Positions 15,501-56,487 of a stretch of 64,000 nucleotides of DNA are shown here, one piece after another. Location: NCBI GenBank assembly GCA_027485675.1, contig JAIXQP010000050.1, positions 1-64,000 on the forward strand, written 5' to 3'. Within the stretch, counting starts at the first letter, position 1. Every line of letters starts with the position of its first letter. Below the pieces are notes generated by a model that worked only from the letters and a program-made list of their open reading frames with translations, made no database searches and was not told the DNA's origin. Source of the DNA: Terriglobales bacterium (GTDB lineage: Bacteria > Acidobacteriota > Terriglobia > Bryobacterales > Bryobacteraceae). Position numbers and translations under genes: made by a program.

Positions 15501-18500
15501 GGTCACCTTCGTCACCCTCGCCGCCTCCTCCCGCGAAGAGCTCCTCCGCCTCATCGTCAAGTATCGCGACCGCGACTTCTGCCATCGCACCTTCGAACTC
15601 GCCTGGTCCCACGCCCAACTCCAATACCGCTACCTCGGCATCCGCAGCGATGAAGCCTTCCGCTACGCCGAACTCGCGAGCCACCTCCTCTACCCCAACC
15701 AATCGCTCCGCGCCCCATCCGAACGCCTCCGCCGCAACACCCTCGGCCAGTCCCGCCTCTGGGCCTATGGCATCTCCGGCGATCTGCCCCTCCTCGTTGT
15801 TCTCGCCGCCGATTCGCAGGGCCTCAGCCTCGTGCGCGAACTCCTCGTCGCCCACACCTACTGGCGCCTCCACGGCTTCAAGGCCGATCTCGTCATCCTC
15901 AACCGCGAACCCGCCAGCTACGATCAACCGCTCCATCAGCAGCTCCTCCGCCTCGCCGAAGCCCACTCGCTCCATACGGGCCTCGACCAGCCCGGCGGCG
16001 TCTTCCTCCGCAAAGCCGATCAAATTCCCGAACCGGACCTGAACCTCATCCTCTGCGTCGCCCAGGCCAGCCTCGGCATCATCCGCGGCCCCCTCTCCCG
16101 CCAACTCGGCGCCCCCGCCGAAGCCAACCTCTATCCCTCTCTGCTGCCCCTCCGCGCCATCGAAGAACAGCCCTCGCCCTCTCTTCCGTTCCTCGAACTG
16201 CCCTATTTCAATGGGCTCGGTGGCTTCACCGCCGGCGGCCGCGAGTACGCCATCTACCTCGGCCCCGGCGTCGTCACCCCGCTCCCCTGGATCAACGTCC
16301 TGGCCAACTCCGTCTTCGGCGCCATGGTCAGCGAATCCGGCGCCGGCTGCTCCTGGTACGCCAACAGCCAGTCCAACCGCCTCACCCCCTGGAACAACGA
16401 CCCCGTCTCCGACCCCTCCTCCGACGTCATCTACATCCGCGATGAAGACAGCGGCGCCTACTGGACCCCCACGCCCTCTCCCGTCCGCGAACTCGATGCC
16501 TATCGCGTCCGCCACGGCCAAGGCTACTCCGAGTTCGAACACAACAGCCACGCCCTCGAACAGACCCTCCTCACCTACGTCCCCGTCCAACCCGGCGCCG
16601 CCGACCCCATCCGCATCCAACGCCTCCGCATCCGCAACCGCTCCCGCGGCCGCCGCCGCCTCTCCGTCACCTCCTACTCCGAACTCGTCCTCGGCACCGA
16701 TCACGAAGTGACGCAAATGCACATCGTCTCCTCCTGGGACGATTCCACCAAAGCCCTCTACGCCCGCAACCCCTACCACCCCAGCTACGGGCCCCGCGTC
16801 ACCTTCGCATCCCTGGAGCCGGCCGCCGTCTCCTACACCGCCGACCGCACCGAATTCCTCGGCCGCAACGGCTCCGTCCGTGCCCCCGCCGCCCTTCGCC
16901 GCGTCGCCCTCTCCCGCCGTACCGGCGCCGGACTCGACCCCTGCGCCGCTCTTCAAACCCGCCTCGATCTCGCCCCTGGCGAAGAGAAAACTGTCCTCTT
17001 CCTCCTCGGCCAGGCCGACGACGAAATCCACGCCCGCCAGCTTCTCCAGCGCTACCGCGCCCCCGCTCAAGTCGACGCCAGCCTCGACCAGACCCGCCAA
17101 TGGTGGGACGGGCTCCTCGGCGCCATCCAAGTCGAAACCCCCATCCTCTCCGTCAACTTCCTCATGAACCGGTGGTTGCTCTACCAGTCGCTCAGTTGCC
17201 GCATCTGGGGCCGCTCCGCCCTCTATCAGTCCAGCGGCGCCTACGGCTTCCGTGACCAGTTGCAGGACTCGCTCGCCATCGTCTACACCGCCCCGGAGAT
17301 CACCCATGAAATGATCCTCCGCGCCGCCTCCCGGCAATTCCTCGAAGGCGACGTCCAGCACTGGTGGCACATGCCCTCCGGCGAAGGCATCCGCAGCCGC
17401 TGCTCGGACGACCTCCTCTGGCTCCCCTACGCCGTCTGCCAGTACGTCCGCGTCACCGGCCATACCGCCATCCTCGATGAGTCCGTCTGCTTCCTCGAAG
17501 CCCCCGTCCTCAAAGACGACGAGCACGAAGTCTACAACCATCCCCAGATCTCCCCCGAAACGGCGTCGATCTTTGAACACTGCCGCCGCGCCATCGAGAA
17601 GGGCTCCACCAGCGGCCCCCACGGCCTGCCCCTCATCGGCACCGGCGATTGGAACGACGGCATGAACACCGTCGGCCCCGAAGGCAAAGGCGAAAGCGTC
17701 TGGCTGGCCTGGTTCCTCATCGACGTGCTCAACAAATTCGCCCCCCTCTGCGACGCCCGCGGCCACAGCCAGCTCGCCTTCGACTACCGCGACCGCGCCC
17801 GCCTCCTCGCCGAAACCGTCGAAGCCACCAGTTGGGACGGCGCATGGTACCGCCGCGGCTACTTCGACGACGGCACCCCCCTCGGGTCCCAGGACCGCAC
17901 CGAAGCCCGTACCGATTCGCTGGCCCAGTCCTGGTCCGTCATCAGCGGTGCCGGTAATCCCGAACGCGCCCGCCAGGGCATGCGCGCTGTTGACCAGTAT
18001 CTCGTCCGCCGCGAAGACAAACTGGTCCTCCTGCTCACCCCGCCCTTCAACGAGTCCCGCCCCCATCCCGGCTATATCATGGGCTATCCGCCCGGCGTCC
18101 GCGAAAACGGCGGCCAGTACACCCACGCCGCCCTGTGGGTCGCCATGGCTTACGCCCGCCTCGGCGATGGCGCCCGCGCTGTCGAAATCCTCGAACTCCT
18201 CAACCCCGTCGAGCACGCCCGCACCCCCCAGGACTGCCAGACCTACCGCACCGAACCCTACGTCGTCGCCGCCGATGTCTATTCGCTCGAAGGCCAAAAG
18301 GGCCGCGGCGGCTGGACCTGGTACACCGGCTCCGCCGGCTGGATGTACCGCATCTGGCTCGAAGAGGTCCTCGGCTTTCAGCTCCAGGGGGACCAGCTCA
18401 CCCTCCGCCCCGCCATCCCCGCCGATTGGCCCGGTTTCGTCCTCACCTTCCGGTACCACTCCACCGTCTACCGCATCGAAGTCACGAACGGCGGCGAACG

Positions 18501-41002: not shown

Positions 41003-41629
41003 CTATTCGCCGCGGCCAACCAGGATCATCGAGACCGGGACGACGCCCATCTTCCGCATCAGCACCCAATCGTGCTCGCCCTGCTTTTCGATCTGGCCTT
41101 CTTTGAAGTATTTGGGATCTTCCTTCCAGATGCTGAAGACGGCCGGATGGGGCGTCCCGGAGGCCTTGCGGCTCAGGTTGAGCAGCGCGTCGAAGTTCGG
41201 GGTGGAGCCGCCTTCGGTGTCTCCACCGGACTGCACCAGCAGCAGGAAGTCCCGCTGCGGCGCCGCGCCCTGGTGGGTTCCATTTTCGGGGAAGTAGCTG
41301 TACCGCATGGTGTACGTGCCGGGCTGCACGGTCTGGCCGCGGCGGTCCTCATGCTTCTGGGCAAACTGAATCACCGCCAGCAGCGAGCCGTGCGGAACGT
41401 TCGGCATGGTGAGATTCGCTTCGGCGGTGGGCGGGCCGGAGGGCACTTCGGCGCGATACCAGACCTCGGCCAGCAGGGCCCCGTCTTTCATCACCTTCGT
41501 CCCTTCCTTGTTCAGCAGAGCGCTGACGCTGGGAGCGAGGTCGGCGGGCGGTGCTCCGCCGGGGGCGACCTTATAATCGTCGGCGAGGAGGGCGGCGGCG
41601 GTGAGGAATAGGGTCAGGATGGGGCGCAT
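41003..41629 (-). CDS. Exported hypothetical protein
   Basis: A 208-residue protein with a signal peptide (MRPILTLFLTAAALLADD). A GTYTMRYSYFPENGTHQG segment and a C-terminal WVLMRKMGVVPVSMILVGRGE end are seen. No family is assigned with confidence. The start at 41629 excludes a longer frame running into the divergent response-regulator gene. Confidence 0.6.
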   Translation of the reverse strand: MRPILTLFLTAAALLADDYKVAPGGAPPADLAPSVSALLNKEGTKVMKDGALLAEVWYRAEVPSGPPTAEANLTMPNVPHGSLLAVIQFAQKHEDRRGQTVQPGTYTMRYSYFPENGTHQGAAPQRDFLLLVQSGGDTEGGSTPNFDALLNLSRKASGTPHPAVFSIWKEDPKYFKEGQIEKQGEHDWVLMRKMGVVPVSMILVGRGE

Positions 41630-41700
41630 GGGTCTCTTCTTTACGATGATCGCAGCGGGGTGTTCGTTGCGGGTTTCGGTACAATTTCGTAGCGGCACCC

Positions 41701-42375
41701 ATGCAAACCATTCTCGTAATCGACGACGACGACAGCTTGCGAGACACCATCGGCCTCATGCTCGAGCAGGAATCGTTCCGGGTCCATCTGAGCGGCAATG
41801 GGCGGGATGGCTATGAAAAGGCGCTGAGCTTGCAGCCGGACCTGATTCTGGTGGATCTGCGGCTGCCGGGAATGAGCGGCGTCGAGATCTGCCGCCAACT
41901 GCGTTCGGATAAGGTGCAAACTCCCATTATTGTACTGAGCGCGCTCGGCGATGAAATTGACAAGGTGCTGCTGCTCGAAATCGGGGCCGACGACTACGTG
42001 GTGAAGCCGTTCGGCCGCCGCGAACTGATCGCCCGGATTCGGGCCCTGCTGCGGCGCAGCGGCGGCGAGGCGCACCATGTGCTGAAGTTCTCCGATACGG
42101 AAGTGAACATTGAACGCCGGATCGTCGAGCGCGGCGGGCAGGAGGTGAAGCTCACCCCGGCCGAGTACAGTCTGCTGGTCTTCTTCCTACAGAATCCGGA
42201 CCGGCCCCTGACCCGGGACGTCATCCTGAACTCGGTGTGGGGATACAACTCGTTTCCGCACACGCGGACGGTGGACGCCCACATCGTGAAGCTGCGGCAA
42301 AAGTTCGAAGCCGACCCCGCCGTGCCGCGCCACTTTCTGACCGTGCACGGGGTCGGCTACCGGTTTCTGCCATGA
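41701..42375 (+). CDS. OmpR/PhoB-family response regulator
   Basis: A 224-residue regulator. The receiver has the acidic pair D8-D9 (VIDDDD), phosphoacceptor D52 (LVDLRLP), S80 and K102 (VVKPF). The C-terminal winged helix (about 128-224) ends in RTVDAHIVKLRQKFE and FLTVHGVGYRFLP, a PhoB-type effector. It opens the eleven-gene run and probably activates it; its kinase is encoded four genes downstream. Confidence 0.9.
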   Translation: MQTILVIDDDDSLRDTIGLMLEQESFRVHLSGNGRDGYEKALSLQPDLILVDLRLPGMSGVEICRQLRSDKVQTPIIVLSALGDEIDKVLLLEIGADDYVVKPFGRRELIARIRALLRRSGGEAHHVLKFSDTEVNIERRIVERGGQEVKLTPAEYSLLVFFLQNPDRPLTRDVILNSVWGYNSFPHTRTVDAHIVKLRQKFEADPAVPRHFLTVHGVGYRFLP

Positions 42376-42710
42376 GGTGGACCGTGCTGGTAGTGGAAGA
42401 CAACCGGGCGCTGGCGGATACGCTGGCCGTCGCGCTGGGCCTGTTGCCGGACACCGAGATCCTGGTGGCTTACGACGGGGCCGAGGGGCGGCGGCTGCTG
42501 CCGCGGGCGGACGCGCTGTGTACGGACCTCGATCTGCCCTACGTCCACGGCGAGACGCTGATCCGGGAGTTTCGGGCACTGAAGCCGGGGGCGCCGGTGA
42601 TTGCGATGTCGGCGGGGCCGGGGGCGCGGGCGGGGGCGGATCACTTCTTCCCGAAGCCGTATTCGACGCTGGTGGTGCGGGAAACCTTGAAGGGGATGCT
42701 TTATGGGTAA
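42372..42710 (+). CDS. Single-domain response regulator receiver
   Basis: A 112-residue stand-alone receiver. The acidic pair E9-D10, phosphoacceptor D52 (CTDLDLP) and K95 (FPKPY) are kept, but the alpha4 region is short and Gly/Ala-rich (AGPGARAGAD), so signalling surfaces differ from CheY. It overlaps the OmpR-type gene by ATGA. It may compete for phosphate with the first regulator. Confidence 0.8.
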   Translation: MRWTVLVVEDNRALADTLAVALGLLPDTEILVAYDGAEGRRLLPRADALCTDLDLPYVHGETLIREFRALKPGAPVIAMSAGPGARAGADHFFPKPYSTLVVRETLKGMLYG

Positions 42711-43950
42711 GTGGTTGTTCGTGCTTTGGCTGCCGGCGATGGGCTGGGCGCAGGCGGATATTCTGGCGCGCCTCGAAAAGCTGGAGGCCGAAAACGCCAA
42801 GCTGCGCGGCGAGGTGGCCGAACTGCGCGCCAAGGTGGACCAACTGGTGCCGGAGCGACTGGAGATCGCCGAACGGCGCATCGAAGAGCAGGCGCAGACG
42901 AAGGTGGAGGCGGCGAGCAAGTATCCCGTGGAACTCGCCGGCATGGCGCTCTTCAACATCTTTGCGAACTCGAAGGGCGCCGGAGGCGTGGATACGCCCA
43001 ATACGGCGAGCCCGGGGGTGAACCGGGGGGCGGGGGGATTGAGCTTCCGCCAGTCGATGGTGGGCCTGCGGTTTCACGGCCCGGTGACCTTCTTCGGCGC
43101 CAAGGTTTCGGGCGAGGCCTTTGGGGACTTCTGGGACGGGACGACCGAGGGAACGGGGAACCTAGCTTTCCGGCTTCGGACGGCCGAGGCGCGTCTTGAT
43201 TGGGAGCGGCGGAGCGTTTCGATTGGCTTGATGAAGCCGCTGATCTCTCCGCGCAACCCGACATCGTTCGCCACGATGGGCGTTACGCCGCTGACGAGTT
43301 CCGGGAACCTGTGGCGCTGGCAGCCGCAGGTCCGCTATGAGGAGCGGGTGGGAGAGTTCAAGCTGCAAGGCGCCGTGATGCAAACCTCCGAACAGTCGGG
43401 CCTGGCGAATCCGGCGCTTGTCGCCCTGCGGCGGCCATCGCTTGAACTGCGCGGAGCGTGGGGCCGGGGCGAACGGTGGGAGTTCGGCCTGGGCGGCCAT
43501 GTTTCGACCTCGCACGTCTCCGGGCAGAGCGTGCCTTCGCGCATTCTGAGCGTGGACTGGCTGGCGAAGCCGTGGGAGAAGCTGGAGCTCTCCGGGTTCC
43601 TTTTTGACGGCGAGAACGTGCACCACCTGGGAGCGCTGCGCCAAAGCTTCCGGTTTCTGGCCGATGGGCGCGTGCTGGCGGTGCGGAGTAAGGGCGGATG
43701 GGGGCAAGCGTCCGTTCCGCTTACCGGGCGCGTGACGGTGAACCTGTTTGGCGGCATCCACGATGACCGGGACTCCGACCTGGTCCGCGGCCAAAACGGA
43801 CGGAACCGGGCGGGCGGCGCGAATGTGATGGTGCAGGTGGCGCCGAACGTGGTGCTGGGGTTCGAGGGGCTGCAGATTCGCTCCGATTTCCTGGGGACAG
43901 GAGAGAGGAGGGTGAACCGGTATGATCTTTCGCTGGCTTATATTTTTTAG
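42703..43950 (+). CDS. Outer-membrane porin-like beta-barrel with N-terminal coiled coil
   Basis: A 415-residue exported protein. After a signal peptide (MGKWLFVLWLPAMGWAQ) comes a coiled coil (ADILARLEKLEAENAKLRGEV..., about 18-70), then a region rich in alternating beta strands (MVGLRFHGPVTFFGAKVSGEAFGDFWD, RLDWERRSVSIGLMKPLISPR) ending in an aromatic residue (YDLSLAYIF), as expected of a barrel. The coiled coil resembles trimeric porins such as DcaP. It likely brings the substrate of the downstream ABC importer across the outer membrane; this is inference from position. Confidence 0.72.
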   Translation: MGKWLFVLWLPAMGWAQADILARLEKLEAENAKLRGEVAELRAKVDQLVPERLEIAERRIEEQAQTKVEAASKYPVELAGMALFNIFANSKGAGGVDTPNTASPGVNRGAGGLSFRQSMVGLRFHGPVTFFGAKVSGEAFGDFWDGTTEGTGNLAFRLRTAEARLDWERRSVSIGLMKPLISPRNPTSFATMGVTPLTSSGNLWRWQPQVRYEERVGEFKLQGAVMQTSEQSGLANPALVALRRPSLELRGAWGRGERWEFGLGGHVSTSHVSGQSVPSRILSVDWLAKPWEKLELSGFLFDGENVHHLGALRQSFRFLADGRVLAVRSKGGWGQASVPLTGRVTVNLFGGIHDDRDSDLVRGQNGRNRAGGANVMVQVAPNVVLGFEGLQIRSDFLGTGERRVNRYDLSLAYIF

Positions 43951-44602
43951 CTGCTGGCCGGCGCTGGCGGCCACGGTCAGCGGCTCCGTGGAGCTGACGC
44001 AGGCCAAGAGCCGGAGCTGGGACGGGGTGGTGGTGTGGCTCGAACCGCTTGAAGGGAAGCCGCCGTTGACGCCCGGCCGCTTCACGCTCGACCAGAAGAA
44101 TAAGAAGTTCTCGCCGCATGTGCTGGCCGTGCCCGTGGGCGCCACCGTGGACTTTCCGAACCACGACCCGATCTTCCACAACGCGTTTTCGAACTTCGCG
44201 GGGCAGCCTTTCGATACCGGCTTGTACGCTCCGGGGACGTCGCAGAAGATCACGTTCCGGCGCGAGGGGTTCGTCCGCGTCTTCTGCAATATCCACGCGA
44301 ATATGAGCGCGGTGATCGTGGTGGTGCCGACGCCGTACTACGCCGTCTCGCTGGCCAACGGCAGTTGGCAGATCCCGAACGTGCCGCCGGGCGAGTATCA
44401 GTTGCGACTGTTTCACGAACGGGCGACCGAGGAGACGCTGCGGAAGCTCGAGATGCGGGTGAAGGTCGGGGACGGCACCCTGACGCTGCCGCGGATGGCG
44501 GTGTCCGAATCCGGCTATCTGCAGGTGCCGCACCAGAATAAGCATGGCCGGCCGTACCCGGCTAAACCGCAGGAGAGTGGACTGTATATAGGAGGCAAGT
44601 GA
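43922..44602 (+). CDS. Exported cupredoxin-like (plastocyanin-type) protein
   Basis: A 226-residue periplasmic protein with a signal peptide (MIFRWLIFFSCWPALAATV). Likely copper ligands: H81 or H86 (NHDPIFHNAF) and C122-x2-H125-x2-M128 (FCNIHANM), the type 1 copper pattern. The C-terminal part (WQIPNVPPGEYQLRLFHERA) resembles a carboxypeptidase-regulatory-like domain. It overlaps the porin-like gene by 29 bases, so the two are coupled. It could shuttle electrons or bind the transported metal. Confidence 0.78.
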   Translation: MIFRWLIFFSCWPALAATVSGSVELTQAKSRSWDGVVVWLEPLEGKPPLTPGRFTLDQKNKKFSPHVLAVPVGATVDFPNHDPIFHNAFSNFAGQPFDTGLYAPGTSQKITFRREGFVRVFCNIHANMSAVIVVVPTPYYAVSLANGSWQIPNVPPGEYQLRLFHERATEETLRKLEMRVKVGDGTLTLPRMAVSESGYLQVPHQNKHGRPYPAKPQESGLYIGGK

Positions 44603-44603
44603 G

Positions 44604-46199
44604 ATGTCCCTCCGTTGGAAGATCTGGCTGGCGGTGTTTGGCAGCGTGACGCTGCTGTTTGGGGTGACCGGGTGGATCCTGCAGCGGCATGCCATCGACA
44701 GCGCGACCCGCTCGCTCGAAGAAGAGATGCGGGGCCGTGTGCGGGCGTACGAGGCGGTGTGGCAGGCGCGGCAGGAGATGCTGGGGACCGCGGCGCTGCT
44801 GATGAGCAGCTTGCCGAACGTGCGGGCGGCGTTTGGAACGCAGGACGCGGCGACCATTCGCGACTCGGCGGCGGAGCTGCAAGGGATGCTGGCGGAGGGT
44901 CTGCGGGAGAAATCCTTCTTCGTGGTTTGCGATCCGCGGGGCGTGCCGATTGCGACGATCGCGGGCAAGGCGCCGGCGATGGCTACCTGGCCGACGGTGG
45001 AGGCCGCCGTACGGCAGAAATCGGGTTTCTTTGTGCAAGGGCGGGCGATCTACCAACTGGTGCTGACGCCGGTGATGGTGGATTCGGCCCGGGGGCCGGC
45101 GATGATCAGCCTGCTGGTGGCGGGCTATCCCGAGAGCGAGCGGCCGGAGCAGTTGACGGGCAGCGAGTTCGTCTTCTCGGTGGCGGGGGAGACGGTGGAG
45201 CGGCCGGGGGTTCGGCTGGACCGCCCGTTGCCGGGGCTGGACGGCAAGCCGGTGGGGACGCTGAGCATCTTCCGGACGCCGGGTCCGGCGGAGCGGGAGA
45301 TCGCCAATCTGCAGCGGGAGCTGATCTGGATGTGGGCCGCGGCGATGGGACTCAGCGTGGTGCTGAGCTTTTTTCTGGCGCGGCGGATCGTCGAGCCCAT
45401 TGGAGCGCTGGACCGGGCGGCGACGGCGATCGGCGAGCAGCGGTACGCCGAGCGGCTGCCGGTGACGAGTAACGACGAACTGGGGCGGTTGGCGGCAACG
45501 TTCAATTCGATGAGCGAAAGCCTGGAGGCGGCGCGGGGCGAGCTGATCCGGCAGGAGCGGATCTCGACCGTGGGGCGGATGGCTTCCGGGATCGTGCACG
45601 ATTTGCGGAATCCGCTGGCGGCGATTTATGGCGGCGCGGAGATGCTGATCGACTCGGATAATCTGGCTCCGGCGCAGACGAAGCGGTTGGCGGGGAATAT
45701 CTATGCGGCCAGCCGCCGCGTGCTCGAAATGCTGCAGGAGCTGCTGGACGCGGCGAAGGGGAAGACCGGCGAGTTCGAGGTTTGCCGGCTGCGGGAGGTG
45801 GTGGAGGCGGCGGTTGAGAGCCAGCAGGTGGGAGAGCAGATTCGGTTTCGCGTGGAGATTCCGGAGGAGTGGGAGCTGCCGATGGACCGGGCGCGGATGG
45901 AGCGCGTGTTCGTGAATCTGGTGGCGAACGCGATTGAAGTGATGCCGGAGGGCGGCGAAGTGGCCGTGGTGGCGCGGACGGAGGGGAAGGATGTGGTGGT
46001 GGAGGTGCGGGACCAGGGGCCGGGGATCGCCGAGGAGGTGCGCGGCCGGCTGTTCCAACCGTTCACGAGCTTCGGCAAGCGGAACGGGTTGGGCCTGGGG
46101 TTGGCGTTGAGCCGGCAGACGGTGCTGGAGCATGGCGGGGACCTGACGGCGGCTAATGGTCCGGCGGGAGCTGTGTTCTCGGTCAGGCTGCATGGGTGA
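44604..46199 (+). CDS. Membrane sensor histidine kinase
   Basis: A 531-residue kinase. Two TM segments (about 7-27 and 238-258) flank a periplasmic sensor (about 30-235). HAMP (about 255-310) leads to HisKA with H near 332 (MASGIVHDLRNPLA) and an HATPase domain with N-box NLVANAIEVMPEGG, G1 VRDQGPGIAEEV, F FQPFTSFGKRNG and G2 GLGLGLALSRQTVLEHGG. It is the probable partner of the two upstream response regulators and starts one base after the cupredoxin stop. Confidence 0.9.
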   Translation: MSLRWKIWLAVFGSVTLLFGVTGWILQRHAIDSATRSLEEEMRGRVRAYEAVWQARQEMLGTAALLMSSLPNVRAAFGTQDAATIRDSAAELQGMLAEGLREKSFFVVCDPRGVPIATIAGKAPAMATWPTVEAAVRQKSGFFVQGRAIYQLVLTPVMVDSARGPAMISLLVAGYPESERPEQLTGSEFVFSVAGETVERPGVRLDRPLPGLDGKPVGTLSIFRTPGPAEREIANLQRELIWMWAAAMGLSVVLSFFLARRIVEPIGALDRAATAIGEQRYAERLPVTSNDELGRLAATFNSMSESLEAARGELIRQERISTVGRMASGIVHDLRNPLAAIYGGAEMLIDSDNLAPAQTKRLAGNIYAASRRVLEMLQELLDAAKGKTGEFEVCRLREVVEAAVESQQVGEQIRFRVEIPEEWELPMDRARMERVFVNLVANAIEVMPEGGEVAVVARTEGKDVVVEVRDQGPGIAEEVRGRLFQPFTSFGKRNGLGLGLALSRQTVLEHGGDLTAANGPAGAVFSVRLHG

Positions 46200-46836
46200 G
46201 CTCTGGGGGGCGGTGGGATTCTCGCTGTGGGTGGCCGGGGCCTCGACGGCGCTGGCGCTGGCGACCGGGGTGTTCTTCGCGGTGCGTGGGACGCGGGTGC
46301 TGTGGCAGGTGCCGCTGGCGATGCCGCACTTGACGATGGCCGTCGTGGTGCTGCATCTGCTGGCGCCGAGCGGGCTGGTGGCGCGGGTGGTGTACGCGCT
46401 GGGCGGGATTGGGGCGCCGGGGGAGTTCCCGGATGTGGTGCAGGACCGGTGGGGCGCGGGGATCATCCTCGTCTACTGGATCAAGGAGACGCCGTTCTTC
46501 GCCCTGTTGGCGCGGACCGTGCTGGAGCGGCTGAGCGGGGAGTATGACGCGGTGGCGTCCACGCTGGGGGCGGACCGCTGGCAGCGGTTCCGGTACGTCA
46601 CGGGCCCGTTGCTGCTGCCGGCGCTGGGGCCCGCGGTGGTGCTGGTGTTTGGGTTCGTTTTCGCGAGTTATGACGTGGCGTTCCTGCTAGGGCGGACCTA
46701 CCCGGCGATGGTGAGCGTGGTGGCGCAGCGGCTGTTCGTGAGTGACCGGGAGACGGCGTTGGCCATTTCGGCGGGAATGGGGCTATTCAGCGCGGCGCTG
46801 GCGTGGGGCTATGTGAGGCTGCGGAGGCAATGGTGA
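46192..46836 (+). CDS. ABC importer permease 1, YnjC-like
   Basis: A 214-residue inner-membrane permease with about 6 hydrophobic segments and the EAA-type loop EYDAVASTLGADRWQRFRYVTGP near 124-146. Type I importer family, as in spermidine/iron/thiamine transporters and the YnjBCD system. It overlaps the kinase by 8 bases. Its tail (SVVAQRLFVSD, LAWGYVRLRRQW) is repeated in the downstream spacer. Confidence 0.82.
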   Translation: MGELWGAVGFSLWVAGASTALALATGVFFAVRGTRVLWQVPLAMPHLTMAVVVLHLLAPSGLVARVVYALGGIGAPGEFPDVVQDRWGAGIILVYWIKETPFFALLARTVLERLSGEYDAVASTLGADRWQRFRYVTGPLLLPALGPAVVLVFGFVFASYDVAFLLGRTYPAMVSVVAQRLFVSDRETALAISAGMGLFSAALAWGYVRLRRQW

Positions 46837-47085
46837 AAGGGCTGATCTGGCAGCCGGTCGATGGGGAGCGTGGTGGCGCAGCGGCAGTTTGTGAGCGAGA
46901 GGGAGATGCTGCTGGCTTGGGGCTATGTGAGGCTGCGGAGGCAATTGTGAAAGGGCTGAGTTGGATGCCGGTCGATGGGGAGCGTGGTGGTGCAGCGGCT
47001 GTTCGTGAGTGACGGGGAGATGCTGATGGCTTGGGGCTATGGGAGGCTGCGGACGCCATGGTGAAGTGGGTGGTCTGGCTGCCGG
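46804..47085 (+). repeat. 114-bp in-frame tandem duplication of the permease 1/permease 2 junction
   Basis: TGGGGCTATG starts at 46804, 46918 and 47032, so the period is exactly 114 bases (38 codons). Each unit joins the permease 1 tail to the head of permease 2: the ATGGTGA that ends permease 1 (46831-46837) is also the ancestral permease 2 start, and recurs as ATTGTGA and as the real ATGGTGA at 47058. The unit lacks 39 bases present in the permease 1 original. The result is a frame at 46831 encoding two degenerate 38-residue units before a TGA. Confidence 0.85.
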
Positions 47086-47762
47086 TGGTGTTTCTGCTGG
47101 TGCGGAGCCTGGCGACGCGCTGGTTCTGGCCGGCGGTTTGGCCGGGCGAATGGAGCGGGCGGGCGTGGGGCGCCGTGCGGGGGGAGCCGGTGTGGAACTC
47201 GCTGACACTGGCTTTGGCCGTGATGGTGGGCGCGGTGCTGATCGCTCTGCTGCTGGTGGCTTCGTTTCGTAAAAACGCGTGGGTGCGATGGGCCGTCATG
47301 ACGATGGCGCTGCTGCCGCCGCTGGCGGCGAGCGTGGGGCTGCACGGGGCGTTTCTGCAATTGGGTTTGACCGATTCTTGGTGGGGGGTCGCGCTGGTGC
47401 ATCTGATTCCGGCGACACCCTACGCGGTGATGGCCGTGGCCGGGAGCCTGTCGCGGTTCGATGAAGACCTGGTGGCGCAGGCGCGCACATTGGGCGCCGG
47501 GCGCTGGGCGATCTGGCGCTATGTGAAGGGCCCGGCCCTGGCGCCGGGGTTGGCGACGGGAGCCGTGTTCGCGTTCGTGGTCTCGTGGAGCCAGTATGTT
47601 TCGACGGCGCTGATCGGCGGCGGCCGCGTGGTGACACTGCCGATGGCGCTGGTGGGCTATCAGCAGAGCGGGGACGAGGCGGTGGCGGCGGCGCTGAGTC
47701 TGGTGTTCCTGGGGGCTCCGGTTATGCTTTCTGTATGGGTCGAGCGTGGCTGGGAATCTTAA
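47058..47762 (+). CDS. ABC importer permease 2
   Basis: A 234-residue inner-membrane permease: six hydrophobic stretches (for example VVWLPVVFLLVRSLAT and LTLALAVMVGAVLIALLLVA) and the EAA loop RFDEDLVAQARTLGAGRWAIWRYVKGP near 136-160. It pairs with permease 1. The ATG at 47058 matches the repeat-unit start; a longer frame from 47031 would include repeat sequence. The 3' end overlaps the substrate-binding protein by 28 bases. Confidence 0.82.
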   Translation: MVKWVVWLPVVFLLVRSLATRWFWPAVWPGEWSGRAWGAVRGEPVWNSLTLALAVMVGAVLIALLLVASFRKNAWVRWAVMTMALLPPLAASVGLHGAFLQLGLTDSWWGVALVHLIPATPYAVMAVAGSLSRFDEDLVAQARTLGAGRWAIWRYVKGPALAPGLATGAVFAFVVSWSQYVSTALIGGGRVVTLPMALVGYQQSGDEAVAAALSLVFLGAPVMLSVWVERGWES

Positions 47763-48787
47763 TCCTGTTGGCGGGATGCGCGAAGCCGCGCGAGGTGAGC
47801 TTTGCCATGTGGACCGGGGATGAGGCCCGGAACCGCTACTTCGAAGAAGTCGTGACGCCGGAGGTGCGGGCGAAGTACGGGTTGACGCTGCGGATTGTGC
47901 CCTACGGCCATACGGGCGAGGTGGTGAGCAAGCTGATCACGGAGAAGGCGGCGGGGAAGACGAGCGGCAGCAGCGTGGACGTGGTGTGGATCAACGGCGA
48001 GAACTTTCGGGCGGCGAAGCGGGCCGGGGTGCTTTGGGGGCCTATCGAGATGCCGCGGCTGTATCCGGACGAGGCGTACGGCAAGGACTTCGGCACGCCG
48101 ATTGAGGGCATGGAAACCCCGTGGCAGAGCGCGCAGTTCGTGATGGCGTGGGACACGGCGCGGTTCGCGGAGCCGCCGCGAACGGTGGACGGGCTGGTGG
48201 CCTGGGTGAAGGCGCATCCCGGCCGGTTCACCTACCCGGCGCCGCCCGAGTTTTCGGGCAGCGTGTTCACGCGGCATTTCCTGCTCGCCAAGGGGTTCGA
48301 CGGCGGCCTGGCGGCGCTGCGTGAGATGAAGCCGTACCTGTGGAAGCAGGGCGAAACGTACCCGGCGACGATCGCGGAACTCGACCGGCTTTTTGCGAAC
48401 AACGAGATCGACTTCGCGATGAGCTACGGGCCGAGCTTTGCGAGTGAACGGATTGAGCGCGGCACGTTTCCGCCGACGGTGCGGACGTTCGTTTTTGACA
48501 GCGGGACGATTGGGAACTATAACTATCTCGCCGTGCCCTTCAATGCGAGCGACCGGGAGGCGGCGCTGACGCTGATCCGCGATTTGACGTCGCGGGAGCG
48601 GCTGCTGGATATGGCGCAGAAACTCGGCCATACGTTTCCGCAGAAGGGGCCGGACCCGGGCCTGAAGCGGGGCGTTGCGACGCTGCCGATGGAGCTGCTG
48701 CGCGAGAGGTTCCTGCCGGAGCCCGACGCCGATGAACTCGTCCGCTTTGAGAAGGCGTGGCGGGAGCGGGTGCTGTTGGCGCGATGA
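47735..48787 (+). CDS. YnjB-like ABC substrate-binding lipoprotein
   Basis: A 350-residue periplasmic binding protein anchored by a lipobox (ILLAGC, Cys near 15). DVVWINGENFRAAKRAGVLWGPI near 77-99 is the hallmark of YnjB proteins, and EIDFAMSYGPSFAS near 224 forms the binding cleft. The substrate of YnjBCD systems is not established. The start at 47735 lies within the permease 2 gene, giving coupling; an upstream in-frame start would lack a signal peptide. Confidence 0.82.
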   Translation: MGRAWLGILILLAGCAKPREVSFAMWTGDEARNRYFEEVVTPEVRAKYGLTLRIVPYGHTGEVVSKLITEKAAGKTSGSSVDVVWINGENFRAAKRAGVLWGPIEMPRLYPDEAYGKDFGTPIEGMETPWQSAQFVMAWDTARFAEPPRTVDGLVAWVKAHPGRFTYPAPPEFSGSVFTRHFLLAKGFDGGLAALREMKPYLWKQGETYPATIAELDRLFANNEIDFAMSYGPSFASERIERGTFPPTVRTFVFDSGTIGNYNYLAVPFNASDREAALTLIRDLTSRERLLDMAQKLGHTFPQKGPDPGLKRGVATLPMELLRERFLPEPDADELVRFEKAWRERVLLAR

Positions 48788-49692
48788 CACGGGTGGAGCT
48801 TGAAGACATCCGGGTGGGCTACGCGGCGGAGGTGCTGCGGGGCGTCTCCGCGGAGTTTCGCGCGGGCGAGTTGACGGCGGTGCTGGGGCCATCGGGATGC
48901 GGCAAGACGACGCTGCTGAAGGTGGTGGCGGGGCTGCTGGCGGGCGAAGGCCGGGTGCGGTTCGACGGAGAAGAGATGAGCGGCGTGCCAGCGGAGCGGC
49001 GGGAGGTGGCGATGGTGTTTCAGAAGCCGCTGCTGTTTCCGCACCTGGACGTCCGGGGCAACGTGGAGTTCGGGCTGCGGATGCGCGGGCGGACGGAGGA
49101 CGTTGCCGCGATGATGGCCATGGCGGGGGTCGCCGACCTGGCCGGGCGACGAGTGGGGACGCTTTCGGGCGGGCAGGAGCAGCGGGTGGCGCTGGCGCGG
49201 GCGCTGGTGACGCGGCCGCGGGTGTTGCTGCTGGATGAGCCGTTTTCGGCGCTCGACGAAACGTTGCGCGCCGAGATGCGGAGCCTCGTGCGGCGCCTGC
49301 AGCGGGAGTTGCGGACGACCACCGTCTTCGTGACGCACGACCAGGAGGAGGCCTCGCTGGTGGCGGACCGGATCGTGCTGTTGCTGAATGGGCGCGTGGA
49401 GCAGGCGGGGACGGCCGCGGAGCTGTACGGGCGGCCGGCGACGGCCGAGGCGGCGCGCTTCTTCGGCTGGCAGGTGCTGCGGAGCGGGCAGGCGTTCCGG
49501 CCGGAAGAGGCGAGGCTGGGTGAGGCGGGATTGGCCGGGGAGGTGCGCGAGGTGGTGCGCTGGGCGCGGGGGACGCGGTATACGGTGGCGCTCGCAACGG
49601 GGGAGACGGTGACGGTGGACGAGGCCGGCTACGGGGCCGAGCGCCGGGGCGCCGTGAGAGTGGAGCTTTTGCGATATCTTGAATTCTCATGA
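48784..49692 (+). CDS. ABC importer ATP-binding protein
   Basis: A 302-residue ATPase with Walker A GPSGCGKTT near 38, Q-loop MVFQKPLLF, signature LSGGQEQR near 130, Walker B VLLLDEPFSALDE near 153 and the H-loop THDQEE. The C-terminal part (about 230-302) is a short TOBE-like regulatory region. It overlaps the binding-protein gene and the sulfatase gene by ATGA, so all are in one transcript. Confidence 0.92.
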   Translation: MTRVELEDIRVGYAAEVLRGVSAEFRAGELTAVLGPSGCGKTTLLKVVAGLLAGEGRVRFDGEEMSGVPAERREVAMVFQKPLLFPHLDVRGNVEFGLRMRGRTEDVAAMMAMAGVADLAGRRVGTLSGGQEQRVALARALVTRPRVLLLDEPFSALDETLRAEMRSLVRRLQRELRTTTVFVTHDQEEASLVADRIVLLLNGRVEQAGTAAELYGRPATAEAARFFGWQVLRSGQAFRPEEARLGEAGLAGEVREVVRWARGTRYTVALATGETVTVDEAGYGAERRGAVRVELLRYLEFS

Positions 49693-51161
49693 TGACGCGA
49701 CGGGGATTTTTGAGCGCGGCGGCCGCCGCCATGACCGCGGGGGCGCAGACGCCGAAACGGCCGAATGTGCTCTTCATCATCTTTGACGACTGGGGCTACG
49801 GACACGCGAGCGCCTACGGCGCCAAATGGGTGAAGACGCCCGGCTTCGACCGCGTCGCCAAAGAGGGCGCGCTGTTCACGCACGCCTTCACGTCGAACCC
49901 CAAGTGCAGCCCGTGCCGCGCGACGATTCTGACGGGGCGGAACTCCTGGCAGACCAAGGAGGCCGTGAGCCACTACAGCCTGTTTCCGAACGAGTTCGCC
50001 GTGTATCCGGCGGAGCTTGAAAAGGCCGGCTACTTCGTGGGCTTGACGGGGAAGGGCTGGGGGCCGGGAGACTTCGTTTCCACCGGCTGGAAACAGAATC
50101 CGGCGGGCAAGAGCTACGACACGAAGAAGACGAAGCCGCCCTTTTCGGGCATGGGTCTGAACGACTACGCGTCAAATTTCGAGGACTTTCTGAGCCAGCG
50201 GCCGAAGGATACGCCCTTCTGCTTCTGGATGGGCTTCCAGGAGCCGCACCGGGTCTACGAGGACGGCTCCGGACTGCGCAGCGGCAAGAAGCTCGAGGAC
50301 GTGACCGTGCCACCGTACTACCCGGATATAAAGACCGTGCGCAGCGACATGCTCGACTACGCCGTGGAGGTGGAGTACGCCGATGCGCATATCGGGCGGG
50401 TGCTCGATAAACTGGCCGCGCTGGGGGAGCTCGAGAACACGCTGGTGATTGTCACCTCCGACCACGGCATGCCGTTTCCGCGCGTGAAGGGCCAGATCTA
50501 TGAAGACGGTTTTCACATTCCGCTGGCCGTGCGGTGGGGCAGCGCGATGAAGGGCGGGCGGACGATCAACGACTTCATTACGACGCGCGATTTTGCGCCG
50601 ACGATTCTCGAAGCCGCGGGCGTGAAGGCCGGACCGACGTTTACGGGCAAGAGCTTCGTGGACGTGTTGAAGAGCGGGAAGGAGGGCGTCGTGGACCCCT
50701 CGCGCGAGTTCGTGATGGTGGCCAAGGAGCGGCACGACATCGGGCGGCCGAACGACGCGGGCTATCCGGTGCGGGCGATCCGGACGCGGCAGTATCTCTA
50801 CATCCGCAACTACACGCCGGACGTATGGCCGGCCGGGATGCCGGAGACGGGGTACCGCGATGTGGATGACAGCCCGACGAAGACGCTGCTGATCTCGAAC
50901 TTTGACCAGTACTACCGGCTTTCGTTCGGCAAGCGCGCGGCGGAGGAGCTCTACGACATTGAGGCCGACCCGGGTTGTATGAAGAATCTGTATGCCGAAG
51001 CGTCGATGACGATGGTGAAGCGGACGCTGCGGGACAAGATGGAAAAGGTGCTGAAGGACGAAGGGGATCCGCGGATGAACGGGAACGCCGCGTTTTTCGA
51101 TACCATCCAGTACACAGGTCCAAAGAAGCACTCGTACGAGACTTGGCTGAAGAATCAGTAG
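49689..51161 (+). CDS. Exported sulfatase 1 (N-sulfoglucosamine sulfohydrolase-like)
   Basis: A 490-residue sulfatase with a twin-arginine-like leader (MMTRRGFLSAAAAAMTAGAQ). The formylglycine motif C73-S-P75-C-R77 (PKCSPCRATILTGR) is complete, with metal ligands D33 and D34 (FDDWGYG) and VIVTSDHGMPF near 260. It needs an FGE-type or anaerobic maturase, not seen in the window. It is coupled to the ABC ATPase gene by ATGA and leads into the sulfite dehydrogenase genes. Confidence 0.9.
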   Translation: MMTRRGFLSAAAAAMTAGAQTPKRPNVLFIIFDDWGYGHASAYGAKWVKTPGFDRVAKEGALFTHAFTSNPKCSPCRATILTGRNSWQTKEAVSHYSLFPNEFAVYPAELEKAGYFVGLTGKGWGPGDFVSTGWKQNPAGKSYDTKKTKPPFSGMGLNDYASNFEDFLSQRPKDTPFCFWMGFQEPHRVYEDGSGLRSGKKLEDVTVPPYYPDIKTVRSDMLDYAVEVEYADAHIGRVLDKLAALGELENTLVIVTSDHGMPFPRVKGQIYEDGFHIPLAVRWGSAMKGGRTINDFITTRDFAPTILEAAGVKAGPTFTGKSFVDVLKSGKEGVVDPSREFVMVAKERHDIGRPNDAGYPVRAIRTRQYLYIRNYTPDVWPAGMPETGYRDVDDSPTKTLLISNFDQYYRLSFGKRAAEELYDIEADPGCMKNLYAEASMTMVKRTLRDKMEKVLKDEGDPRMNGNAAFFDTIQYTGPKKHSYETWLKNQ

Positions 51162-51170
51162 GAGAAGGAT

Positions 51171-52352
51171 ATGGCAGACCGGCGATCATTTTTGGGGCTA
51201 GCGGCAGTGTTGACGGCTTGTACGAAGTCGTCCAAGGAACCGAGCGTCGTGGAGCAGACGATGGCTCCTTACGGGGAGCGCGCGGGGGCGGAGGCCAAGA
51301 TCTTGCGGACCGCGACGGAGCGGACGGCGAGCGTTGGCGTGGGATCGAGCACGACGCCGTTGCAGGAGTTGCACGGGGTGATCACCCCGTCGGCGCTGCA
51401 CTTTGAACGGCACCACGCGGGAATTCCCAAGATCGATCCGGCGAAGCATACGCTGCTGGTGCACGGTCTGGTGGCGCAGCCGATGGAGTTTTCGCTCGAT
51501 GATCTGAAGCGGCTGCCGGCGGTGACGCGGACGCACTTCATTGAGTGCTCCGGCAATGGCGGCGGCGAGTTGCGCGGGGTCGCGGGCGCGACGGTCGAGA
51601 AGAGCCACGGGCTGCTGAGCTGTTCGGAGTGGACCGGGGTGCCGCTGAAGGTGCTGCTCGAACAGGCGGGCGTGAAGCCGGAGGCCAAGTGGGTGATTGC
51701 CGAGGGCGCCGACGCGTGCCGGATGGCGCGGAGCATTCCGATGGCCAAGTGTATGGAAGACGCGCTGGTGGTGTACGGGCAGAACGGCGAGGCGCTGCGG
51801 CCGGGCCAAGGCTATCCGCTGCGGCTGCTGTTGCCGGGGTTTGAAGGGAACTCGAGTGTGAAGTGGCTGGACCGGTTGCATGTCACCGAAGAGCCGGCGC
51901 AATCGAACCAGGAGACGGCGCACTATACGGACCTGCTGCCGGACGGCAAGGCGCGGCAGTTCTCGTTCGTCATGGATACGAACTCGGTAATCACGCGGCC
52001 GTCGGGCGGACAGAAGATCGCGGGCGGAGCGGGATTTGTCGAAATCAGCGGGATCGCCTGGACGGGGAACGGGAAGATCAAGCGGGTGGAGGTTTCGATG
52101 GACGGCGGCAAGACCTGGGTGGACGCCGCGCTCGAAGAGCCGGTGCTGTCGCGGAGCCTGACGCGCTTCCGGGCGCCGTGGGTTTGGGACGGCAAGGACG
52201 CCGTGATTCAGTCCCGGGCGACGGACGAAACAGGCTACATGCAGCCGACGCGCGACGAGATCGTAGAGGCGCGCGGGGTGAACAGCCAGTACCACTACCA
52301 TGGCGTGAAGCAGTGGGCGGTGAAGGCCGACGGGAGTGTGACGAATGTTTAG
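51171..52352 (+). CDS. soxC: Molybdopterin sulfite dehydrogenase, SoxC-like
   Basis: A 393-residue sulfite-oxidase-family protein. The N-terminus is a leader with a cysteine (MADRRSFLGLAAVLTACTK) compatible with export. The molybdenum ligand is likely C126 in THFIECSGNGGG, followed by WTGVPLKVLLEQAGV and the C-terminal dimerisation domain (GIAWTGNGKIKRVEVSMDGGKTWVDA). It oxidises sulfite or sulfane sulfur with its cytochrome partner, which starts 8 bases before its stop. It begins 9 bases after the sulfatase. Confidence 0.9.
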   Translation: MADRRSFLGLAAVLTACTKSSKEPSVVEQTMAPYGERAGAEAKILRTATERTASVGVGSSTTPLQELHGVITPSALHFERHHAGIPKIDPAKHTLLVHGLVAQPMEFSLDDLKRLPAVTRTHFIECSGNGGGELRGVAGATVEKSHGLLSCSEWTGVPLKVLLEQAGVKPEAKWVIAEGADACRMARSIPMAKCMEDALVVYGQNGEALRPGQGYPLRLLLPGFEGNSSVKWLDRLHVTEEPAQSNQETAHYTDLLPDGKARQFSFVMDTNSVITRPSGGQKIAGGAGFVEISGIAWTGNGKIKRVEVSMDGGKTWVDAALEEPVLSRSLTRFRAPWVWDGKDAVIQSRATDETGYMQPTRDEIVEARGVNSQYHYHGVKQWAVKADGSVTNV

Positions 52353-52875
52353 GATCGTATTCCTGCTGTGCGCGGTGAGCGCGTTCGCCCAGACCAAGTA
52401 TCCGGGCGTGGGGAAGGCCGCGGCGCCGGAGCGCGTGAAGGCGGCTGACAAGACGGTGATGGCCGATGGCCGCGGGTTGCCCGCAGGCAAGGGCAACGTG
52501 GAGACGGGGCGCGGGTTATACAAGACGCACTGCGCCGAATGCCACAACGAGGCCGGCGAAGGGCGCGATAAGCAGTGGCCGGCGCTGGTGGGCGGGACCG
52601 GGACCTTGGCGACGAAGGCGGCCAAGAAGACGGTGGGAAGCTACTGGCCGTATGCGACGACGGTGTGGGACACCATCGCGCGTTCGATGCCGTACAACAA
52701 CCCCGGGACCTTGAAGCCGGACGAGGTGTACGCGATTACGGCGTTCGTCCTGCACTTGAACGGGATTGTGCCGGCGGGGCAGGAGCTGGATGAGAAGTCG
52801 CTGCCGCAGGTGAAGATGCCCAACCGGGACGGTTTTATTCCGACGGCGCATCCGGATGTGAAGGCGAAACGGTAG
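52345..52875 (+). CDS. soxD: SoxD-like c-type cytochrome
   Basis: A 176-residue periplasmic monoheme cytochrome with a signal peptide (MFRIVFLLCAVSAFAQT). Heme motif C63-A-E-C66-H67; the axial Met is probably in IARSMPYNNPGTL near 114. YAITAFVLHLNGIVPAGQELDEKSLPQVKMPNRDGF is typical of SoxD C-termini. It accepts electrons from the SoxC-like subunit. Sox A, B, X, Y and Z are absent, so this is a SorAB/SoxCD-type sulfite system only. Confidence 0.88.
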   Translation: MFRIVFLLCAVSAFAQTKYPGVGKAAAPERVKAADKTVMADGRGLPAGKGNVETGRGLYKTHCAECHNEAGEGRDKQWPALVGGTGTLATKAAKKTVGSYWPYATTVWDTIARSMPYNNPGTLKPDEVYAITAFVLHLNGIVPAGQELDEKSLPQVKMPNRDGFIPTAHPDVKAKR

Positions 52876-55089: not shown

Positions 55090-56487
55090 CTATTGTTTCA
55101 CCGGACCGGTCGCACTGTATTTGGTTAGATTCTGTTTCGTCGTCGTCTCCCACTGCTCAATCGGAGGGGCCCCCTGGGCCGCGAAGAAGCCGTCCAACTC
55201 CCGGCGCAGCGTCCGCTGCACGGAGGCCAGCGCCGGGTCGCCGAAGCGGTTCAGCTTTTCGCCCGGGTCGCTTTCGAGGTCGTACAACTCGCTGGGCCAC
55301 TCTTTCGTCCGGACGATGAGTTTGTAGCGCTCCGTGCGGATGCCGCGAACGTAGCTGTATTCGAAAAACAGCCGGTCCCGCCAGGCGACCCGTTTGCCTT
55401 CGAGCAGCGGCAGGTAGCTCCGGCCGGGCCGCTTCCGGTCGGCCGGGGCCTTGACGCCGAGGTAGTCGAGGACGGTGGGGAAGAAGTCGTAGCTTGAAAC
55501 CATTTCGGTGTTCACCTGGCCGGCCCGCAGCCGGGCGGGATGCGACCAGAGGAGCGGCACCCGGATGGACTCCTCATACATATTGAAGGGCCAAGTGCCG
55601 TTGCCTTTGCCCCAAACGCCGTGGTGGCCGGCGTTCCAGCCCTGGTCGGAGGTGAAGACGATGACGGTGTTCTCGCGCCAGCCCTTTTGGTCGAGCCTGG
55701 TGACCACCCGGCCGATGTTGCGGTCGAGGGCCGTGATGAGGGCGGAGAAGCCACGCTTGGCGGCCTCGTTCCGGTGAAGATTGCGGGTGCCGAAGTTCCG
55801 GGCCGGGTGCGGGGGTTCGTCGGGGAAGCAGGAGAAGCTCGCGTTCTGATAGGGGGCCCGGTCCCGCTCGGGCTGGTAGTCGTAGGGCGTATGGGGCGCG
55901 TAGAAGGGCATGTGCAGGTAGAAGGGGGTGTCCTCCCGCTGCTGATTGAGGAAGTCGAGGGCGAAGTCGCCGATGGCGTCTTCCTTGAATCCGGACACCT
56001 TCTTCGTCTGCCCGTTGTGGACGAATTCGACATCCTTGTAGGGGCCGCCGCCGCCGGGCACGGTGGCCCAATAGGTGAAGCCGCGCTGCGCCTTTTCGTC
56101 CTCGCCCATGTGCCACTTGCCGGTCATCCCGCAGCGGTATCCGGCCTGGGCGAGCAGTTCGGGGAACGTCAGATGGCCATCCAGCCAGCGCTTGGCGGTG
56201 GGGCCGGCAGCGTCTTCCGGCCGGAGCCAATCCTGGACGCCGTGCGTCGAGGGGATGCGGCCGGTCATGTAAGTCAGGCGGCTGGGGGAGCAGACCGGGG
56301 TGCAGGCGAAGGCGCGGGTGAACTTCACGCCGGCCTTAGCGAGGGCGTCGATGTGGGGGGTCTTGATTTCGTCGCAGCCGTAGGTGCCGGTGGCCCACGG
56401 TGCGTGGTCGTCGGTCATGAAGACGATCAGATTGGGCCGGCGGCGGGGCGCCGGGGCCAGGCTGGCGAGAAACAGGCGGCGTGTCAT
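55090..56487 (-). CDS. Exported sulfatase 2
   Basis: A 465-residue sulfatase with a short leader (MTRRLFLASLAPAP). The formylglycine motif C66-S-P68-S-R70 (VCSPSRLTYMTGR) is complete, with metal ligands D26 and D27 (MTDDHAPW), GMTGKWHMGED and VFTSDQGWNAGHHGVWGKG near 270. It is a separate sulfatase lineage from the one at 49.7 kb and is not in the Sox cluster. Confidence 0.9.
   Translation of the reverse strand: MTRRLFLASLAPAPRRRPNLIVFMTDDHAPWATGTYGCDEIKTPHIDALAKAGVKFTRAFACTPVCSPSRLTYMTGRIPSTHGVQDWLRPEDAAGPTAKRWLDGHLTFPELLAQAGYRCGMTGKWHMGEDEKAQRGFTYWATVPGGGGPYKDVEFVHNGQTKKVSGFKEDAIGDFALDFLNQQREDTPFYLHMPFYAPHTPYDYQPERDRAPYQNASFSCFPDEPPHPARNFGTRNLHRNEAAKRGFSALITALDRNIGRVVTRLDQKGWRENTVIVFTSDQGWNAGHHGVWGKGNGTWPFNMYEESIRVPLLWSHPARLRAGQVNTEMVSSYDFFPTVLDYLGVKAPADRKRPGRSYLPLLEGKRVAWRDRLFFEYSYVRGIRTERYKLIVRTKEWPSELYDLESDPGEKLNRFGDPALASVQRTLRRELDGFFAAQGAPPIEQWETTTKQNLTKYSATGPVKQ

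Follow-up and report, generated by a model that had tools for sequence, protein, structure and literature searches.

What could a two-component system, a porin, a cupredoxin, an ATP-binding cassette (ABC) importer, a sulfatase and a sulfite dehydrogenase be doing together in one run of genes? The question is raised by the first 64,000 nucleotides (the window) of contig JAIXQP010000050.1 of a Terriglobales bacterium, whose genome comprises 6.59 Mb in 54 contigs. Twelve co-directional plus-strand genes span positions 41701–52875; an original prediction, made from the sequence alone, had placed both ends exactly but spoke of eleven genes, although its own list holds twelve. Judged by comparison with related genomes, the run appears to be a real operon that is conserved in one clade and assembled from parts of known kinds. 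Genes 1–5 (module A: regulator, receiver, barrel, cupredoxin and kinase) look like an older, self-standing module, and genes 6–12 (the cassette: two permeases, YnjB, ATPase, sulfatase, SoxC-like enzyme and cytochrome) follow the kinase in that clade only. As had been supposed, the arrangement is undescribed as far as our searches of the open-licence literature go. By analogy with the TctDE-OpdH-TctCBA system, we put at about even the chance that it works as one self-regulated uptake operon for an anionic nutrient.

Eight of the eleven junctions in the window overlap, in line with the prediction that most would; the other three are spaced by +1 (cupredoxin/kinase), +9 (sulfatase/soxC) and +221 bases (permease 1/permease 2). 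Junction lengths were compared in five loci, the gene starts of the relatives being placed by extrapolation from the proteins of the window. Five junctions have the same length in every locus: regulator to receiver (−4), cupredoxin to kinase (+1), kinase to permease 1 (−8), YnjB to ATPase (−4) and ATPase to sulfatase (−4). The remainder differ by a few bases, except those between barrel and cupredoxin and between the two permeases. All twelve genes are supported, because divergence concentrates at the third codon position, the commonest site of difference in 48/48 gene-by-locus comparisons (12 genes in 4 related loci); for permeases 1 and 2 it still forms the largest class in the two most distant loci (45–53%), but no strong majority. 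Terminator-like sites between 40900 and 54300, both strands counted, number 13 compared with 9.1 (standard deviation 3.0) in shuffled sequences, which is not clearly above chance.

A search with YnjB matched nine of 81 genomes, namely eight of the 19 from the same genus (the window genome included) and one of another genus (G030). Gene order agrees in all eight genus genomes. Four loci are complete (the window, G017, G009 and G011), that of G006 is complete but for part of the regulator, where its contig ends, and in G001, G015 and G016 the locus is divided between two contigs, with the break at the permease junction or close to it; permease 1 was not seen in G001. SoxC-like genes (81–97% identity) lie a few kb downstream of YnjB in all eight. 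Order and overlaps are retained across proteins that are as little as 76% identical, although the 3' flank has been rearranged: past the cytochrome, some genes are common to the window and G001 and some to G009 and G015, G006 and G011 have their genes in common, and the flanks of G017 and G016 match no other. The upstream side, with a divergent gene and a TIM-barrel gene, is more conserved within the genus and is therefore no independent test. The notion of one conserved overlapping unit is thus borne out within the clade. The prediction had named gene order as its check and scattered blocks as what would speak against it, and both are found: adjacency in the eight genus genomes and scattering outside the clade.

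Table. Features of the twelve-gene run, its upstream region and the repeats at the permease junction. Positions are those of the window unless a related locus is named; aa, amino acids.
Feature	Position	Strand	Evidence
Probable promoter region	41629..41700	+	TACAAT shortly 5' of the regulator ATG
OmpR-type response regulator (gene 1, module A)	41701..42375	+	Pfam Response_reg 6.9e-29, Trans_reg_C 6.4e-26
Stand-alone receiver domain, 112 aa (gene 2, module A)	42372..42710	+	Pfam Response_reg 5.9e-10
DcaP-like outer-membrane porin with N-terminal coiled coil, predicted (gene 3, module A)	42703..43950	+	Profile, Foldseek
Periplasmic cupredoxin with carboxypeptidase-regulatory-like tail (gene 4, module A)	43922..44602	+	Pfam below cut-off, ligands conserved
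Sensor histidine kinase with HAMP (gene 5, module A)	44604..46199	+	Pfam HATPase_c, HAMP, HisKA
ABC permease 1, 214 aa (gene 6, cassette)	46192..46836	+	Pfam BPD_transp_1 3.1e-9
Tandem repeat, 114-bp unit, 2.5 copies	46799..47086	+	TRF score 434
ABC permease 2, 234 aa (gene 7, cassette)	47058..47762	+	Pfam BPD_transp_1 1.1e-12
YnjB-type substrate-binding lipoprotein (gene 8, cassette)	47735..48787	+	NF008633, lipobox
ABC ATPase (gene 9, cassette)	48784..49692	+	Pfam ABC_tran 5.1e-36
Exported type I sulfatase (gene 10, cassette)	49689..51161	+	Pfam Sulfatase 2.7e-39, motifs
SoxC-like molybdenum sulfite dehydrogenase (gene 11, cassette)	51171..52352	+	TIGR04555, 2xts_A
Monohaem cytochrome c, partner of the SoxC-like gene (gene 12, cassette)	52345..52875	+	Pfam Cytochrom_C 2.3e-12, one CxxCH
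123-bp repeat stretches	L211 1-397; L045 12432-12653		Permease 1-permease 2 junction

The barrel is distributed more widely than the cassette, with matches in 42 of the 81 genomes: 19/19 in the genus, 18/30 elsewhere in the family, 2/20 in the order outside the family and 3/12 in the class. Twenty barrel loci were compared, three of which are halves of cassette loci; in 16 of the 17 cassette-free loci (genus and family) regulator, receiver, barrel, cupredoxin and kinase stand in this order, and the remaining one (L213) is cut by its contig. None of these 17 stretches has a match to permease, YnjB, SoxC or cytochrome; weak sulfatase matches (26–27%) lie elsewhere in three and a generic ATPase match in one. 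Two further cassette-free genus genomes, G008 (62% complete) and G012 (58% complete), lie outside this comparison, and the latter, with a barrel fragment 80% identical, may belong to the cassette clade. The stand-alone receiver gene is present too in the other family genera examined. Across the phylum the cupredoxin matches 138 of 247 genomes, and a barrel relative lies within 2–4 kb in 21 of 29 best-match cupredoxin loci. Among 20 more distant loci picked from the best cupredoxin matches, 13 have regulator, kinase, barrel and cupredoxin on one strand, one (G041) has the five-gene order of the window, two have a divergent regulator-kinase pair and four miss part of the set. In G030, barrel, YnjB and SoxC lie on three separate contigs. 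No description of the regulator-kinase-porin-cupredoxin set of Acidobacteriota was found in the literature searched, and it would be a conserved sensing unit worth a name.

Two genomes from a single other genus (G115 and G273; loci L106 and L110) have a sulfatase gene directly after regulator, kinase, barrel and cupredoxin, independently of the cassette. This hints that module and sulfatase can belong together, but calls for caution, as the two genomes are close relatives.

The putative promoter of the regulator gene may also be older than the cassette. Its TACAAT is kept in 11 of the 12 aligned genus loci (7 with the cassette and 5 without), the exception being TAGAAT in L199, and because it is kept in both kinds of locus, it fits the capture of an old promoter by the cassette. 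The region is probably the promoter of the regulator gene, as judged from this conservation. On the other side lies the divergent gene (41003–41698, minus strand), whose family is unrecognised and which presumably starts near 41629; it adjoins the regulator and also stands beside module A in other genus genomes.

The permease junction is the most variable in the cassette, with spacings of 221, −7, 64, −7 and −7 in the five loci. In the window the gap is filled by the 114-bp repeat, a feature absent from the original prediction, which is built from the end of permease 1 and the start of permease 2; it is absent from G017, G006 and G011, whose permease genes overlap plainly by 7 bases. An unrelated 123-bp unit occupies the same junction in G015 (1.8 copies seen) and G016 (3.2 copies seen), with 97–98% matches, and the contigs of both end inside it. 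Among the best 40 candidates per genome in eight genomes, this unit was found only at that junction in G015 and G016 and as a 26-base piece at the G009 junction. That repeats have grown independently at one junction may serve to tune translation of permease 2, or may be chance; both units are multiples of three, for which the probability by chance alone is 1 in 9. A short frame between the permeases in G015 and G016 was considered as a coding microprotein and dropped: an open frame in the repeat says little, because the two other frames are equally open across it in L045. Another departure in length is seen in G011, in which barrel and cupredoxin are 803 bases apart (L048, about 15822–16629) and extra fragments match the C-terminal part of the barrel.

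The gene names of the original prediction hold, with refinements, of which the first concerns the barrel. It has no Pfam porin match, but matches the DcaP-like protein of structure 6eus by profile (E 2.6e-6), and its predicted structure (pLDDT 83.3) has 6eus as its top Foldseek match (TM 0.67/0.79, 17% identity). DcaP porins are defined by a 16-strand-type barrel with an N-terminal coiled coil. The model has helices at 5–48 and 51–73 followed by a run of long strands and a C-terminal Phe, so that the predicted fold is DcaP-like. It resembles the Acinetobacter proteins in this fold, the coiled coil, the C-terminal Phe and the weak profile match, and differs from them in its low identity and in belonging to a 36-row family from Acidobacteriota. 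Growth on di- and tricarboxylates requires DcaP3, one of the known DcaP porins (PMC12338516).

The cupredoxin has Pfam matches to Copper-bind and CarboxypepD_reg that fall short of the curated cut-offs, and its candidate ligands H86, C122, H125 and M128 are kept in 42, 42, 41 and 42 of 42 aligned relatives. These residues, which we take by their motif to be the type 1 His-Cys-His-Met set, predict a copper protein. The sole exception at H125 is an Arg in the G001 bin (L210 cupredoxin), which may be an error or a real change. Cupredoxins annotated as 'methylamine utilization protein' in plasmid records are about 30% identical over the cupredoxin part and some stand beside EAL signalling proteins, unlike that of the window, which adjoins a porin and an OmpR-type regulator-kinase pair. 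In the sensor region of the kinase no recognised domain was found.

The importer is of the YnjBCD type, which is widespread and annotated as uncharacterised. YnjB scores 312.9 bits against NF008633 (cut-off 203), has an LAGC lipobox in the window and in 4/4 orthologs, and has two separate permease genes and an ATPase gene alongside, as expected for YnjBCD; the permeases here are short (214 and 234 aa) and the neighbours are unlike those of other loci. YnjBCD may be related to sulfur by way of the E. coli neighbour ynjE, a relation for which the literature search gave no link. YnjB is 56–58% identical to that of G030 and 34–47% identical outside the family. Outside the genus we compared 79 loci, drawn from the best 80 of 581 matches and with flanks of at most 10 kb, and sulfatase, SoxC, cytochrome, barrel and cupredoxin were matched in none (0/79), which leaves unsupported the proposal that the neighbourhood points to the YnjBCD substrate. 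Neighbours in these loci (L115–L193) include a VTT-domain protein in 22, an FAD oxidoreductase with DUF1499 in 15, an APH-type kinase in eight and a nucleoside-hydrolase-like protein in five. PMC9207381 also lists YnjBCD as an uncharacterised ABC importer (COG4134–4136).

A search of solved structures with the YnjB sequence alone gave no match, and a profile search gave weak matches to polyamine, maltose and thiamine binders. Foldseek neighbours at 11–18% identity include binders of phosphonate, iron, thiamine, metal-citrate, sugar-phosphate and polyamine, and because they span so many classes we assign no ligand. The iron and metal-citrate binders among them, together with the near-invariant copper ligands, are consistent with an operon for metal handling, in which the kinase would sense a metal, porin and cupredoxin would handle copper, YnjBCD would import a metal complex and the redox enzymes would be downstream users. 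We consider this quite unlikely, given the low identities and the other ligand classes in the same list; moreover, no copper ATPase, CopA- or CusA-like protein or metallochaperone is present among the scanned window genes beside the operon, the genome as a whole not having been searched for them.

The sulfatase has the type I formylglycine motif C-x-P-x-R (CSPCR) in the window and in 4/4 orthologs, and a twin-arginine RRGFL. The SoxC-like protein scores 552.2 bits against the SoxC model TIGR04555 (cut-off 420), contains the molybdenum-ligand cysteine motif ECSGNG and is closest among solved chains to 2xts_A (362 bits against 115 for SorA), which we take to be the SoxCD structure; as in SoxCD and SorAB, a cytochrome c is encoded next door. 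SoxD is by definition the dihaem partner of SoxC. The cytochrome here differs in having one CxxCH in the window and in 4/4 orthologs, rather than the two haems first supposed. A second difference is that SoxY (PF13501), the carrier with which SoxCD usually works, was not found in seven of the eight cassette genomes, the window genome included, all being drafts; it was matched in G006 only (one of 22 genomes searched), which shows that the search can detect it. Given the rarity of SoxY and the single haem motif, the SoxC-like enzyme may be a free sulfite dehydrogenase or have another oxyanion as its substrate.

These enzymes suggest a use of sulfur compounds in which an organic sulfate or sulfonate would enter by the porin, the sulfatase would free sulfate, YnjBCD would import the desulfated remainder, and the SoxC-like enzyme and cytochrome would clear sulfite made elsewhere. 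The retained formylglycine motif, the 10 FGE-family matches in the host genome, the clear SoxC score and the lasting adjacency of sulfatase and soxC across the eight cassette genomes are all consistent with this; we nevertheless regard it as unlikely. Sulfatases release sulfate, which is already fully oxidised and is no substrate for a sulfite dehydrogenase, so that the two enzymes share no sulfur intermediate and the proposed pair that releases and oxidises sulfur is no pathway as it stands. The missing SoxY and the lack of either gene in the flanks compared at the 79 outside-genus YnjB loci also count against it. A sulfatase neighbour is cheap evidence because sulfatase matches number 49 in the host genome (48 of them above the cut-off, with some representing one gene in two pieces), which makes a chance neighbour easy, although the adjacency is conserved nonetheless. 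The idea of a sulfated or metal-linked substrate is possible, but not what the evidence favours. A further sulfatase gene lies at 55090–56487 on the minus strand, 2.2 kb downstream of the operon; it is partly present after the G001 cassette, and the other cassette flanks that were examined did not show it.

A different possibility is that the blocks have no common function, the cassette having hitch-hiked behind an existing operon whose promoter it could use, with each block keeping its own purpose. The dispersal over three contigs in G030 agrees with this, as do the soxC genes outside the cassette, which in 12/12 loci examined stand alone with a cytochrome gene following. In a tree of 38 SoxC proteins (four duplicate loci left out, rooted by midpoint only), the eight cassette copies form one branch (100/100) that joins seven stand-alone copies from within the genus (100/99) on a long stem. 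This grouping also agrees with separate blocks, and makes a within-genus duplication the likely origin of the cassette SoxC. In G000 and G001 no other SoxC above 32% identity was found. Against separate purposes stands the persistence of exact order and overlaps down to 76% protein identity beside a rearranged 3' flank, and we hold this explanation to be quite improbable. Within the tree the window copy groups with that of G016 (99/84), whereas its YnjB and barrel are closest to those of G017 and G001, a conflict for which recombination within the genus is possible.

A more far-reaching possibility is that the old module has become, in one acidobacterial lineage, part of a complete system reaching from outer membrane to cytoplasm, in which the kinase would sense an organosulfur or other oxidised anion, the SoxC-like enzyme would oxidise it in the periplasm with electrons passing by the cytochrome to the cupredoxin, and YnjBCD would import the product. 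We think this very unlikely; if true, it would give YnjBCD a first physiological setting, and importer stoichiometry would be tuned by the repeats that separate the permease genes.

We return to the self-regulated uptake operon. It would be read from a promoter just 5' of the regulator gene, and stop/start overlaps would keep it in one piece, with the kinase and OmpR-type regulator sensing a periplasmic solute and controlling their own operon. The DcaP-like porin would admit small, probably anionic, molecules, and the cupredoxin would carry electrons in the periplasm or serve there as a copper protein. In the one clade, the seven-gene cassette would have been placed directly behind the kinase, so that the same regulator also drives the YnjB importer, the sulfatase, and the SoxC-like dehydrogenase with its cytochrome c; most likely, a single class of anionic nutrient would be detected, let in, trimmed and imported. 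Electrons would presumably flow from the SoxC-like enzyme through cytochrome c to the cupredoxin or to an oxidase. Gene set, order, overlaps, their conservation and the modular history can be read from the genomes compared, but a single transcript, self-regulation, a common substrate and this electron flow we infer. Several observations weigh against this explanation. A scan with a consensus promoter reported no plus-strand site in 41629..41700, with counts near those of shuffled sequences, and coupling may be weaker across the 221-base repeat junction in the window. Eleven of the 19 genus genomes, some of them quite incomplete, lack the cassette, which shows that module A can do without it; nor is module A itself universal, the barrel being found in 0/18 genomes of sister family f3. 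Finally, sulfatase and SoxC do not act sequentially on one sulfur atom, and the structural neighbours of YnjB are spread over many ligand classes.

If the operon is self-regulated, the case shows how a cassette can come under an existing regulator, and because YnjBCD is linked here, through the conserved overlaps, with a porin, a sensor and periplasmic enzymes, whatever compound induces the operon would be a candidate substrate. The closest parallel is the tricarboxylate uptake system of Pseudomonas aeruginosa, in which we take TctDE to be an OmpR-type regulator and kinase, and TctCBA to be an importer of a different class. The window differs from it in having an ABC importer of the YnjBCD type rather than one of the TctCBA type, a DcaP-like porin rather than OpdH, and an extra receiver, cupredoxin, sulfatase, SoxC-like enzyme and cytochrome. 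The two are alike in tying a regulator-kinase pair to an outer-membrane channel and an inner-membrane importer, and according to PMC4513871 TctD regulates its own gene together with the citrate-induced porin-importer operon opdHtctCBA, which is the kind of control that we propose here.

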